Shown here: positions 12,171 through 17,449 of the stretch, piece after piece
How the letters are laid out: every line of letters begins with the position of its first letter
Numbering within the stretch: the stretch's first letter is position 1
The notes under the pieces: model-generated
What the model saw: the letters and a program-made list of their open reading frames with translations, nothing else
Databases searched by the model: none
Told to the model about the DNA's origin: nothing
DNA from: an uncultured Pelagibacteraceae bacterium
GTDB lineage: Bacteria; Pseudomonadota; Alphaproteobacteria; Pelagibacterales; Pelagibacteraceae
Direction: 5' to 3'
Length of the DNA: 64,000 nt
NCBI GenBank assembly: GCA_902570425.1
Contig: CACFYB010000001.1
Location: forward strand, 186,001-250,000
Made by a program: the position numbers and the translations under genes

Positions 12171-12989
12171 ATGACCAAAAATTTAGATAATGAAGGTTTG
12201 AGTTCGATTGTAGATAATTATCAATTATTTTATGTTGACCTGTGGGGTGTAATCCATAATGGAGTCTCTCTTCATAAAGAAGCGATAAAAACTCTTAAAG
12301 AAATCAAAAATAAAAATAAAGAATATGTTTTGCTCACTAATGCGCCAAGACCAAATAATGCAGTAAAAAAATTTTTAGAAAAATTGGGCATGGAAGAAGA
12401 AATTAGGGAGCATGTTTTTACCTCTGGTGAAGCTGCTTTGATATATTTAAAAAAAAATTTTTTTTATAAAAAATTCTTTCATATCGGTCCTCCAAGAGAT
12501 TTTGATTTATTTAAGGATTTTGAGAAAAATAAGTCTGAAAAAATTGAAGAAAGTGAATATTTTTTGTGCACAGGCTTATTTGATGAGCACGATGAAGATT
12601 TGGTTTATTACAAAGATCTACTTGAAAAAAATACAAAAAAAAAGATGATTTGCACTAACCCAGATTTAATTGTGGACAGAGGTAATATTAGAGAATTGTG
12701 TGCAGGTTCTGTAGCAATGATTTTTGAAAAAATTGGTGGAGAGGTAGTTTATTTTGGCAAACCTTATCCAGAGGTTTATAATCAATCTATTGATAACAAA
12801 AATAAAAAGATATTATCTATAGGAGATAACTTAAATACAGATATAAAAGGAGCAAATTTATTAAATTACGATTCCTTATTAATTTCAAATGGAATTCACA
12901 AAAATGAAATTGAGGAAAAAGGTATTGAAAAAGTTTCTAAATCATATGAAGCAATTTGTAATTATATTCAATCAGAATTAAAATGGTAA
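12171..12989 (+). CDS. HAD-superfamily (class IIA) sugar-phosphatase-like hydrolase
   Basis: 272 residues. The nucleophile motif appears as FYVDLWGVIHNG (residues about 20-31), with the second Asp replaced as in the TIGR01459 subgroup of HAD-IIA proteins. Motif II is LLTNAPRP, and the C-terminal acid motif is ILSIGDNLNTDIKGANLLNY. The family dephosphorylates small phosphorylated metabolites, but the substrate is unknown. The gene overlaps ribF by 7 bases, and ribF overlaps ileS, so the three are probably one operon. It is divergent from groES across 125 bases. Confidence 0.85.
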   Translation: MTKNLDNEGLSSIVDNYQLFYVDLWGVIHNGVSLHKEAIKTLKEIKNKNKEYVLLTNAPRPNNAVKKFLEKLGMEEEIREHVFTSGEAALIYLKKNFFYKKFFHIGPPRDFDLFKDFEKNKSEKIEESEYFLCTGLFDEHDEDLVYYKDLLEKNTKKKMICTNPDLIVDRGNIRELCAGSVAMIFEKIGGEVVYFGKPYPEVYNQSIDNKNKKILSIGDNLNTDIKGANLLNYDSLLISNGIHKNEIEEKGIEKVSKSYEAICNYIQSELKW

Positions 12990-13915
12990 AATCATTTAAA
13001 GTTTACAAAAATTTTAAAATAGAACCTAAAGATAAAAGGTCAATAGTTTTAATAGGGAACTTTGATGGATTGCATTTAGGGCATCAAAAATTATTTACTC
13101 AAGCTCAAAAATATAAAAAAAGATATAAATCTAAAATTGGTGTGCTGACTTTTGAACCAATGCCAAAAATGTTTTTTAACAAGAAATTAAAAAATTTTAG
13201 AATTTCTGATAAAAAACAAAAATTAAATCTATTCAAAAAATTTAAAGTAGATTTTGTAATTTTAAAAAAATTTACAAGAAAATTATCAAGAATGAAATCA
13301 GATAAATTTATAAAGGGTATATTGGGTAAAAATCTAGCAGCAAGATTTATTTTTGTGAGTGATAATTTTAGATTTGGAAATAAAAGAGAGGGAGATGTTA
13401 AACAATTAAAAACTTTTGAAAACATTCTGAATTATAAAATTATTAAACCAAATCCGTTAATCTTAAATAAGAATATAGTGTCATCCTCTTTAATTCGAAG
13501 AAATTTGCAAATTGGTAACTTATCGAAAGCAAATAATCTTTTGAATAGAAAATGGTCTATATTTGGTAAAGTTCAAAAAGGTAAACAATTAGGAAAAAAA
13601 ATTGGTTTTCCAACTGCAAATATTGACATCAAAGATTATATATTAGCAAAACCAGGTGTTTATGCTGTGAGAATTAAAAAACAAAAAAGTAATAAATTTA
13701 TAAAAGGTATAGCTAATTTAGGGTATCGCCCAACATTTAATGGGAAAAAAATATTATTAGAAGTTCACTTATTTAATTTTTCTGGAAATTTATATAATAA
13801 GTATTTAACAGTTGAATTTTTAAAATTTATAAGAAAAGAAAAAAAGTTTAAGAATGTGGATCATTTAAAAAAACAAATTAAAAATGATTTGTTGGTAGCA
13901 AAAAAAACAAAATGA
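12983..13915 (+). CDS. ribF: Bifunctional riboflavin kinase / FAD synthetase
   Basis: 310 residues, normal family length. The N-terminal FMN adenylyltransferase domain has the GNFDGLHLGHQKL nucleotide-binding motif (residues about 26-38) and an SSSLIRRNL motif near residue 172. The C-terminal riboflavin kinase domain has GKQLGKKIGFPTANI (about 203-217) and ends in a lysine-rich helix. The enzyme converts riboflavin to FMN and then to FAD in the cytosol. It overlaps the HAD gene (7 bases) and ileS (4 bases, ATGA), which implies coupled translation. Confidence 0.96.
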   Translation: MVKSFKVYKNFKIEPKDKRSIVLIGNFDGLHLGHQKLFTQAQKYKKRYKSKIGVLTFEPMPKMFFNKKLKNFRISDKKQKLNLFKKFKVDFVILKKFTRKLSRMKSDKFIKGILGKNLAARFIFVSDNFRFGNKREGDVKQLKTFENILNYKIIKPNPLILNKNIVSSSLIRRNLQIGNLSKANNLLNRKWSIFGKVQKGKQLGKKIGFPTANIDIKDYILAKPGVYAVRIKKQKSNKFIKGIANLGYRPTFNGKKILLEVHLFNFSGNLYNKYLTVEFLKFIRKEKKFKNVDHLKKQIKNDLLVAKKTK

Positions 13916-16900
13916 CTAAATCTCAAATTAATCTCCCCAAAACAACTTTTTCTATGAAGGCAAATTTACCTGTTAAAGAACCTGAGATTCTAAAGATTTG
14001 GGAAAAAATTAATCTTTATAAAGAACTTAGAAAATCTAGAGAAGGTGAGGAGAAATTTGTTCTACATGATGGACCACCTTACGCTAATGGCAATATACAT
14101 ATGGGTACAGCTTTAAATAAAATTTTAAAAGATATTATTGTTAGATTTCATCAAATGAGTGGTCAGGACTCAGTTTATGTTCCAGGATGGGATTGTCATG
14201 GATTGCCAATTGAATGGAAAATTGAAGAGCAATATAAAAAAAATAAAAAGAATAAGAATGAAATTCCTGTAATTGAGTTTAGAAAAGAATGCAGGACATT
14301 TGCAGAAAAATGGATTGAAATACATAAAAGTCAATTTAAGAGATTGGGTGTCGTTGGTGATTGGGAAAATTATTACTCTACAATGAGTTATGAGGCAGAA
14401 GCACAAATTGTCAGAGAGCTAGGTAAGTTTTTAAAAGAGGGGAGCTTGTATAGAGGCTTTAAACCTGTTTTGTGGTCAACTGTTGAAAAAACAGCATTAG
14501 CTGATGCAGAAGTAGAATATCAAGATCACAAATCTGACACTATCTATGCGTCTTTTTTAATAAAATCATCTTTACTTAAAGAATTAAATAATTGTCATGT
14601 AATCATTTGGACTACTACTCCTTGGACTATACCTGCTAATAAAGCTTTAGCTTATAATGAAAATTTGGATTATTTGATTATTAAAATTTTAGATGATGGT
14701 GATTTTAAAGATCAAAAAATTGTTATTGCTGAAGCTCTATTGGAGTCTGTAATTAAAGATTGTAAAATTGAAAAATTTACAAAAATTCAAAAGTTTAAAG
14801 GTAAAGAATTTAAAAATACTATTTGTCAGCACCCCTTTTTTGATCTGGGATATAAATTAGATATTCCTATGTTAGAAGCAAGATTTGTTACAACAGAGCA
14901 AGGGACTGGTATTGTTCACTGCGCTCCAAGTCATGGTCCAGATGATTTTAATTTATGTTTAAAAAATGGAATTAAAGCGATAGAGACAGTTGATGGAGAC
15001 GGAAAATATACTAAAGTTGTTCCTTTGTTTGAGGGAATGCATATTTTTAAGTCCAATACTTTAGTTATTGAAAAATTAAAGGAACAAAAAAAACTTTTAT
15101 CAAATGGTCAATTAATTCACTCTTATCCTCATTCTTGGAGGTCTAAGGCTCCTTTAGTTCACAGGGCAACACCACAGTGGTTTATTTCAATGGATAGTCA
15201 TAATTTAAGAAAAAAAGCTCTGAAAGCAATTGATGAAACAAGTTTTTATCCAAGCAAAGGAAAAGAAAGATTAAGATCAATGATTGAAACAAGGCCAGAT
15301 TGGTGTGTATCAAGACAAAGAGTATGGGGCGTTCCACTTCCTATTTTTGTGAACAAAAAAAATAATGAAATTTTGATTGATGACAAAGTGTTTGAAAATA
15401 TTGCCAATATTTATGAGAAAGAGGGTTCAGATTGTTGGTTTTCCGACGATCCTCAAAAGTTTTTAGGAAACAATTATAGGGCAGATGATTATGAGAAATT
15501 AAGTGATATAGTTGAAGTATGGTTTGATAGTGGATCAACTCATTCATTTGTCTTAGAAAAAAGAGAAGATTTGAAATGGCCTGCATCAATGTATTTAGAA
15601 GGTTCAGATCAACATCGAGGCTGGTTTCATTCATCACTTTTGGAATCTTGTGGAACACGAGGAAGAGCTCCTTTTGAATCAATTTTATCTCATGGATTTG
15701 TCGTAGATGGAAAAGGTTTTAAAATGTCAAAGTCTCTTGGCAATGTAATAGCACCTGATGATATTTTGAAAAAATATGGTGCTGATATATTAAGAATTTG
15801 GGTTGCCTCCTCTAATTATGCAGAAGATTTAAGAATTGACTATTCTATTTTAGATCAACATTCTGAGTCATATCGAAAAATAAGAAATACATTCAGATAT
15901 TTGCTTGGAAATCTAAATGATAAATTTGAAAATATTGATTTAGAAAAAATCAATTATGATAATTTGCCTGAATTAGAAAAATTTATGTTAAATAGAGTTT
16001 ATTCACTTAATGAAAAATTCAACGAATATTTTAAAATTTATGATTTTCATAATCTTTATAAAGAATTATTAAATTTTTGTACAGTCGATTTATCTGCATT
16101 TTATTTTGATATAAGAAAAGATACTCTTTATTGTGATCCTTTAAATTCTAATAAAAGAAAATCATGTATTATTATTTTGAATATTTTATTGAACTCTTTA
16201 CTTAAGTGGTTTGCACCAATTCTGACTTTTACAACAGAGGAAATATATCAATTAGTCTCAAAAAAATACAAAAGTATTCATTTAGAAAAATTTCAAATTT
16301 ATCCAAAAAAATTTAAAGATGAAAAGCTTGAAAAAAAATGGCTAGAGTTAATAAAGTTAAGAAATACTTGCAATGTTAGTATTGAGGAAAAAAGAGCAAA
16401 TAAAGTAATAGGTTCAAGTTTAGAAGCCGAATTAAATCTTAAATTAAATAGTAGCTATAAAAAAGTTATTTCAAATATTGATTTAGCTGAATTATGTATA
16501 ACCTCAAAAGCAGAAGTCACTTATGATGATAAAATTGATGTTATTGTAAGCACAAAAAAATCTTTAGGAGAAAAATGTTCTATATGTTGGAAAATAAAAG
16601 ACGATCCATGTACTAGAAATAATTGTGGTCTTCAAAAAATGATTAATTCTTTAAAGAAAAATTTTATTATTAATTTTTTATTTGTTTTTACAATTTTCTT
16701 TTTAGATAGAATTACCAAATTATATGTAATTAATTTTAATGAAAATTATGGTGTCGATTTAATAAATTCAAAATTTCTTAACATTAGCTTAATTTGGAAT
16801 CAGGGAATAGCATTTGGTCTTTTTTCATTTAATGAAAAATATTTTTATAATATTTTAACATTCATTATTCTAATAGTTATTTTAATAATCCTTTTTATGA

Positions 16901-17124
16901 TAAAAAATAGCGAGGGTTTAAAAAAATACTCATTACTAATGATATTTGGTGGAGCTTTAGGTAATCTTTATGATAGAATTGTCTTTTCTGCGGTTCCAGA
17001 TTTTATAGATATCCATATTAATAATTTTCACTGGTTTATATTTAATGTAGCTGATATTTTCATTACTTTAGGAGTATTAATCATGATTATGACAGAATTT
17101 ATTGGTATAGACAAAAATAAATAA
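13912..17124 (+). CDS. ileS-lspA: In-frame fusion: isoleucyl-tRNA synthetase (IleRS) + lipoprotein signal peptidase (LspA)
   Basis: 1070 residues in one open frame. Residues 1-909 are IleRS: HIGH-equivalent HMGT (63-66), the editing-domain phrase TTPWTIPANKAL, KMSKS at 604-608, and a C-terminal zinc site with C889, C892, C900 and C905. Residues 910-1070 are a complete 161-residue LspA, with four membrane helices, NQGIAFGLF, and the two catalytic-Asp motifs GNLYDRI and FNVADIF. Met910 (16639) is the natural LspA start. No stop codon separates the parts. At the junction, CAAAAAATGA, losing one A would give a canonical TGA/ATG (ATGA) overlap. The arrangement could be a true fusion, an indel or sequencing error, or frameshifting. 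IleRS charges tRNA-Ile in the cytosol; LspA cleaves lipoprotein signal peptides in the inner membrane. A lipoprotein gene follows. Confidence 0.93.
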   Translation: MTKSQINLPKTTFSMKANLPVKEPEILKIWEKINLYKELRKSREGEEKFVLHDGPPYANGNIHMGTALNKILKDIIVRFHQMSGQDSVYVPGWDCHGLPIEWKIEEQYKKNKKNKNEIPVIEFRKECRTFAEKWIEIHKSQFKRLGVVGDWENYYSTMSYEAEAQIVRELGKFLKEGSLYRGFKPVLWSTVEKTALADAEVEYQDHKSDTIYASFLIKSSLLKELNNCHVIIWTTTPWTIPANKALAYNENLDYLIIKILDDGDFKDQKIVIAEALLESVIKDCKIEKFTKIQKFKGKEFKNTICQHPFFDLGYKLDIPMLEARFVTTEQGTGIVHCAPSHGPDDFNLCLKNGIKAIETVDGDGKYTKVVPLFEGMHIFKSNTLVIEKLKEQKKLLSNGQLIHSYPHSWRSKAPLVHRATPQWFISMDSHNLRKKALKAIDETSFYPSKGKERLRSMIETRPDWCVSRQRVWGVPLPIFVNKKNNEILIDDKVFENIANIYEKEGSDCWFSDDPQKFLGNNYRADDYEKLSDIVEVWFDSGSTHSFVLEKREDLKWPASMYLEGSDQHRGWFHSSLLESCGTRGRAPFESILSHGFVVDGKGFKMSKSLGNVIAPDDILKKYGADILRIWVASSNYAEDLRIDYSILDQHSESYRKIRNTFRYLLGNLNDKFENIDLEKINYDNLPELEKFMLNRVYSLNEKFNEYFKIYDFHNLYKELLNFCTVDLSAFYFDIRKDTLYCDPLNSNKRKSCIIILNILLNSLLKWFAPILTFTTEEIYQLVSKKYKSIHLEKFQIYPKKFKDEKLEKKWLELIKLRNTCNVSIEEKRANKVIGSSLEAELNLKLNSSYKKVISNIDLAELCITSKAEVTYDDKIDVIVSTKKSLGEKCSICWKIKDDPCTRNNCGLQKMINSLKKNFIINFLFVFTIFFLDRITKLYVINFNENYGVDLINSKFLNISLIWNQGIAFGLFSFNEKYFYNILTFIILIVILIILFMIKNSEGLKKYSLLMIFGGALGNLYDRIVFSAVPDFIDIHINNFHWFIFNVADIFITLGVLIMIMTEFIGIDKNK

Positions 17125-17125
17125 T

Positions 17126-17449
17126 ATGTTGTCCTTAAATAAAATTTTAACTCTATTTCTTATTTTCATTTTTTTATTTATTTCTGCATGCAAATCTGCT
17201 CAAAAAGCTTTCGTTCCTGAAAAAAAAAAGGGTAGTGATGCTTTTTTAGTAAAAAAAAAATCACCATTGGTAATGCCACCTAGTTATGGTGAACTACCAA
17301 AACCAAATGAAAAAGTTGAGAATAAATATGAAAAAACAGATATTCAAGGTTTAATTTCAGGATCAGATAGCAAGGTTATCGAAAAAGAAAAAACTACAGA
17401 AAGTAGTTCAATTGAAAAATTAATTCTCAAAAAGATTAAAAAGAATTAA
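17126..17449 (+). CDS. DUF3035-type lipoprotein
   Basis: 107 residues. The N-terminal hydrophobic stretch ends in the lipobox FISAC (lipidated Cys22), so it is a lipoprotein. The central DAFLVKKKSPLVMPPSYGELPKP phrase matches the DUF3035 pattern (D-x-F-x-V ... P-L-x-x-P-P-x-x-x-L-P-x-P) found in alphaproteobacterial lipoproteins. The function is unknown. It begins 1 base after lspA, the enzyme that would process it, and its last base is the first base of pgi's start codon, so it is part of the same operon. The C-terminal half is charged and probably disordered. Confidence 0.75.
   Translation: MLSLNKILTLFLIFIFLFISACKSAQKAFVPEKKKGSDAFLVKKKSPLVMPPSYGELPKPNEKVENKYEKTDIQGLISGSDSKVIEKEKTTESSSIEKLILKKIKKN

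Follow-up and report, generated by a model that had tools for sequence, protein, structure and literature searches.

The window, the whole stretch of 64,000 nucleotides analysed here, lies in contig 1 of an uncultured Pelagibacteraceae genome of 922,378 bases in 23 contigs (80.5% complete). The nearest named relatives of this genome are also uncultured Pelagibacteraceae, many of which carry AG- or SAG names that we take to denote single-cell genomes (several titles say MAG). In the ORF reading of the window, a single forward-strand ORF of 1070 aa (13912-17124) runs without a stop through both ileS and lspA, and Pfam places tRNA-synt_1 (PF00133) at residues 26-643, Anticodon_1 (PF08264) at 690-841 and Peptidase_A8 (PF01252) at 925-1062 (108 bits, cut-off 25) in this one ORF. 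The initial annotation, which described the two genes as joined in frame at an A6 run, was therefore accurate in its reading of the sequence: one ORF spans both genes. Its upstream neighbour (12983-13915), presumably ribF-like, shares 4 nt (13912-13915) with the start of ileS, so that ileS itself stands within a chain of overlapping genes. Directly after lspA there is a small ORF (17126-17449) that matches DUF3035 weakly (25.1 bits against a cut-off of 23.2) and whose N-terminus looks lipoprotein-like by eye; its product could be a substrate of LspA. The features of the joined ORF are collected in Table 1.

Table 1. Features of the joined ileS-lspA ORF in the window
Feature	Position	Strand	Evidence
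ileS part: complete bacterial-type IleRS, residues 1-909	13912-16638	+	Pfam, motifs, solved relative
C-terminal cysteines of putative zinc site, residues 889, 892, 900, 905	16576-16626	+	sequence
A6 run at the join; stretch before the ATG one base shorter than in the sister genome	16634-16639	+	alignment
ATGATTAA: lspA start with kin-type overlapping TAA (16644-16646), out of the ileS frame	16639-16646	+	
lspA part: complete LspA, residues 910-1070	16639-17124	+	Peptidase_A8, GNLYDR 1017, FNVAD 1044

Both halves have the features of complete proteins, as had been claimed from the sequence. The class I catalytic domain of the IleRS half contains HMGT at residue 63 (HIGH-like) and KMSKS at 604, its anticodon-binding domain is followed by the C-terminal cysteines of a zinc site that is still putative, and its best solved relative is 8c9e (E 3e-237); the cysteine-rich tail is also found in the IleRS of relatives. 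The LspA half, which starts at Met910, scores above the family cut-off, has 6ryo and 5dir as solved relatives, and contains both GNLYDR and FNVAD, the motifs that we take to carry the LspA catalytic aspartates. Its hydropathy profile has three clear regions (919-940, 974-1004 and 1039-1068), the family criterion being four membrane helices. The genome, at 80.5% completeness, yielded no second LspA. Against the sister genome, dN and dS were 0.061 and 0.943 for ileS and 0.119 and 0.558 for lspA, which points to purifying selection on both halves, although such values cannot date so recent a loss as the one considered below. An AF2 model of residues 641-1070, built on an alignment of five read-through relatives and 13 IleRS tails, had a mean pLDDT of 71, with values below 50 at the joint and of 31-81 by blocks over LspA, and is too poor to describe the joint.

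The final A of the run is the first base of the lspA ATG. When run lengths from A3 to A10 were simulated, the fusion arose only with A3, A6 and A9, and the A4, A5, A7, A8 and A10 variants ended IleRS at 909-912 aa in every case. Removal of one A creates a TGA in an ATGA stop/start overlap, a point that the initial annotation had computed correctly, and addition of one A brings the TAA into frame in an 8-nt overlap and gives an IleRS of 911 aa. Inspection by eye revealed no Shine-Dalgarno-like stretch directly upstream of the lspA ATG. From Cys905 to the first membrane-like stretch (residue 919) there are 14 residues, with no added linker at the joint.

The gene pair resembles the overlapping ileS-lspA pair of SAR11 (Pelagibacterales) relatives, where lspA also follows directly after ileS and IleRS has a cysteine-rich tail. 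It differs from the pair of the sister clade, which has the module ATGNTTAA at the boundary, in being one base short, which puts the TAA out of frame and joins the ORFs. A tree was built from 37 rows, namely the window, 20 hand-picked of 81 relative loci, and 16 fetched sequences, several of them chosen for similarity. In it the window groups with its sister L003 (support 100/100) in a clade of six (99/98), and all five other members of this clade have the 8-nt overlap ATGNTTAA. The window as written has no stop/start overlap and yet retains ATGATTAA. Aligned to the sister, it is missing one base before the ATG, opposite a G of the sister; what was lost may thus be either one A of the run or this G. 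The sister IleRS is 911 aa long, the same length that one extra A would give the window. Since the window has one base fewer than the sister and its kin have the 8-nt overlap, the change would be the loss of one base and not the gain of an A, a direction that we infer from the kin. In another relative, L062 (AG-430-P08), the TAA that ends ileS in close kin reads TTA, IleRS is three codons longer, and its stop lies inside the lspA start, a natural stop shift without fusion.

The fusion was sought among relatives at several distances. LspA was matched in 149 of 201 genomes of a genus sample, our own included (in G003 and G038 a contig end truncates the match), and in the 148 others no long frame surrounds LspA, the longest being 192 aa. 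Among 82 loci with both genes, only our own is fused and none of the 81 from relatives is; the set contains some genomes twice (e.g. L003 and L032), and L001, a second copy of our own locus, was dropped. Searching with a query that covers the joint gave matches in 297 of 399 genomes from the genus (roughly half of them shared with the LspA sample) and in 276 of 297 from the order; among the matches listed for these two samples only our own genome reads across the joint without a stop. Same-frame pairs of the genus score at least 293 bits, well above the lowest match listed, so a fusion in the genus should show up. A rerun covered 29 genomes that had a single match and were absent from the spanning rows of both samples: in 18 of them, which all belong to a different family of the same order, the match crosses the joint and contains a single stop, and the remaining 11 matches are one-sided or break off near the joint. 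Among the matches listed, same-frame pairs with exactly one stop were thus seen in 66 genomes (30 from the genus, 18 from the order and 18 from the rerun) and a stop-free pair in none of these, which share ancestry and are not 66 independent tests. Three further genomes (G630, G970 and G929) have two stops at the joint; G665 and G852, with many stops and another frame, were left out of the count.

The search was extended to wider samples. In a class sample, PF01252 matched 377 of 385 genomes, and the matches listed include frames of 300-430 aa and one of more than 1000 aa, in G357; the latter was rejected as a fusion, being a GC-rich shadow frame and not IleRS. In a phylum sample 291 of 299 genomes were matched. 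Nine loci from these searches were opened, namely six with long frames (G467, G1139, G1070, G1246, G1121 and G1160), two read-through rows (G1097 and G1005) and one from the genus (G684), and none is fused, a stop lying between ileS and the LspA match in all nine; other long phylum frames, e.g. in G1169, G1153 and G226, have stops in the listed rows. A literature search of titles and abstract openings returned no description of an IleRS-LspA fusion. Within the genomes examined, the join is apparently private to this assembly. The initial annotation had offered a real fusion, two proteins made through internal initiation or slippage, or a homopolymer error. The comparison of junctions in relatives that it had called for favours an error, or a private mutation, since no relative examined is stop-free, and leaves a real fusion unsupported.

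How often bases are gained or lost elsewhere in this genome was assessed by comparing 543 kb of it with 742 kb of the sister, ignoring stops in the first 20 residues. The 334 orthologues (97,749 aligned aa) contain no internal stop and no frameshift that held up, three two-frame matches being due to TTG starts that lie further upstream in the relative. This places the indel rate at no more than ~1 per 98 kb (95% upper bound), in a test that indels near gene ends escape. A scan of ORFs found no two-frame splits whether or not shadow ORFs were counted; stop-bearing matches numbered 7 and 11 with them and 1 and 4 without them, and the latter, apart from the window ORF, are all confined to residues 1-20 and are probably start extensions. 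Pervasive indel errors in the genome were rejected on these grounds. Of the same-strand neighbour pairs of the nearest relative, 216 could be placed in the 543 kb, 153 of them close or overlapping, and ileS-lspA is the only one fused here, so that this join exceeds chance. The reverse comparison yielded one apparent fusion, in which two genes correspond to one 121-aa ORF near a contig start of the relative. A pattern scan of viral contigs for other copies of the species gave no matches, and the available part of PMC5519541 contains no usable indel rate. The clean genome weakens a story of general error and leaves room for one isolated error arising during amplification or assembly.

Taken together, these data are best explained by an ordinary overlapping SAR11 ileS-lspA pair that would lack one base in this assembly, immediately ahead of the lspA ATG, with the result that the IleRS frame continues past the overlapping TAA and into lspA. 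The normal state of the species, judged from its clade, would be two proteins: an IleRS of 911 aa ending at the TAA inside ATGATTAA, and an LspA whose translation begins at the overlapping ATG, probably through termination-reinitiation. Such coupling at overlapping genes (ATGA, TGATG) is the subject of PMC6728339, as far as its available part goes. The boundary in the kin, with its short stop/start overlap, comes close to the type examined in that paper, whereas the window has no boundary stop, so no coupling would take place in it unless a slip occurs. We consider it very probable that a one-base loss, technical or private, lies behind the join, and that the species normally makes IleRS and LspA separately.

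That the loss is technical, an artefact of sequencing or assembly, has in our estimation an even chance. Three observations speak against it. No other indel in the genome held up across the 334 orthologues; the indel sits exactly at a tolerant gene boundary, where real mutations would be expected to survive selection; and A6 is short as a run, the coding ORFs of contig 1 (GC 28.7%) containing 769 of them. We rank an artefact above a private mutation, and a private mutation above a functional fusion, the choice between the first two resting on judgement.

A tentative second explanation, to which we give appreciably less than an even chance, is that the base is truly absent from the DNA, through a recent and roughly tolerated mutation confined to the sequenced cell or its lineage. 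The product would then be mostly an IleRS-LspA fusion, with some free IleRS made by slippage in the A run and some free LspA by internal initiation: slippage by one base at the run, in either direction, would release a nearly normal IleRS, in keeping with the simulated run lengths, and initiation of LspA from its own ATG would still be possible. A genome otherwise clean of indels and the purifying selection on both halves fit this explanation, although dN/dS is unable to date the loss, and the 66 listed same-frame pairs, related as they are, all keep their stop. PMC5574713, in its available part, describes transcription insertions that rise with A/T run length. The window genome is likewise AT-rich with many A runs, and a slip could restore the stop; the window differs in that its frame change lies at a gene boundary and truncates nothing, and in that its run is only A6. 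The same part of PMC5574713 has no case of such an error restoring a frame, which counts against a private mutation.

A fixed, functional fusion, in which IleRS is tethered to the inner membrane via LspA, was raised by the initial annotation and is unlikely. The N-terminus of LspA faces the cytoplasm, so the joint is topologically possible; the stop-free ORF with both sets of motifs, and the failure to find another lspA in the 80.5%-complete genome, would suit it. It is, however, absent from every relative examined, including the nine opened loci of the wider searches, it has no added linker at the joint, and the tethered synthetase is thus left without comparative support among these relatives. 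More doubtful still is a one-base switch, in which the fusion would hold IleRS at the inner membrane and slippage at A6 in either direction would release a near-normal soluble IleRS. An ancestral A5 with an ATGA overlap that gained one A, as the initial annotation implied, is the least probable of all: A5 does give that overlap, and -4 overlaps exist elsewhere in the genus, but the five other clade members have the 8-nt overlap ATGNTTAA, which lies in another frame and needs one base more, and the sister is one base longer, not shorter.

On the preferred reading, a one-base loss in an ordinary gene pair, the organism probably does not have the fused protein as a trait, and an unchecked record might end up in databases as a bifunctional IleRS/LspA. 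For the group, the comparison yields a usable negative as well: dozens of SAR11 genomes keep a sole stop between an ileS and an lspA that lie in the same frame, and the 66 stops so kept suggest selection against fusion, or for separate proteins.
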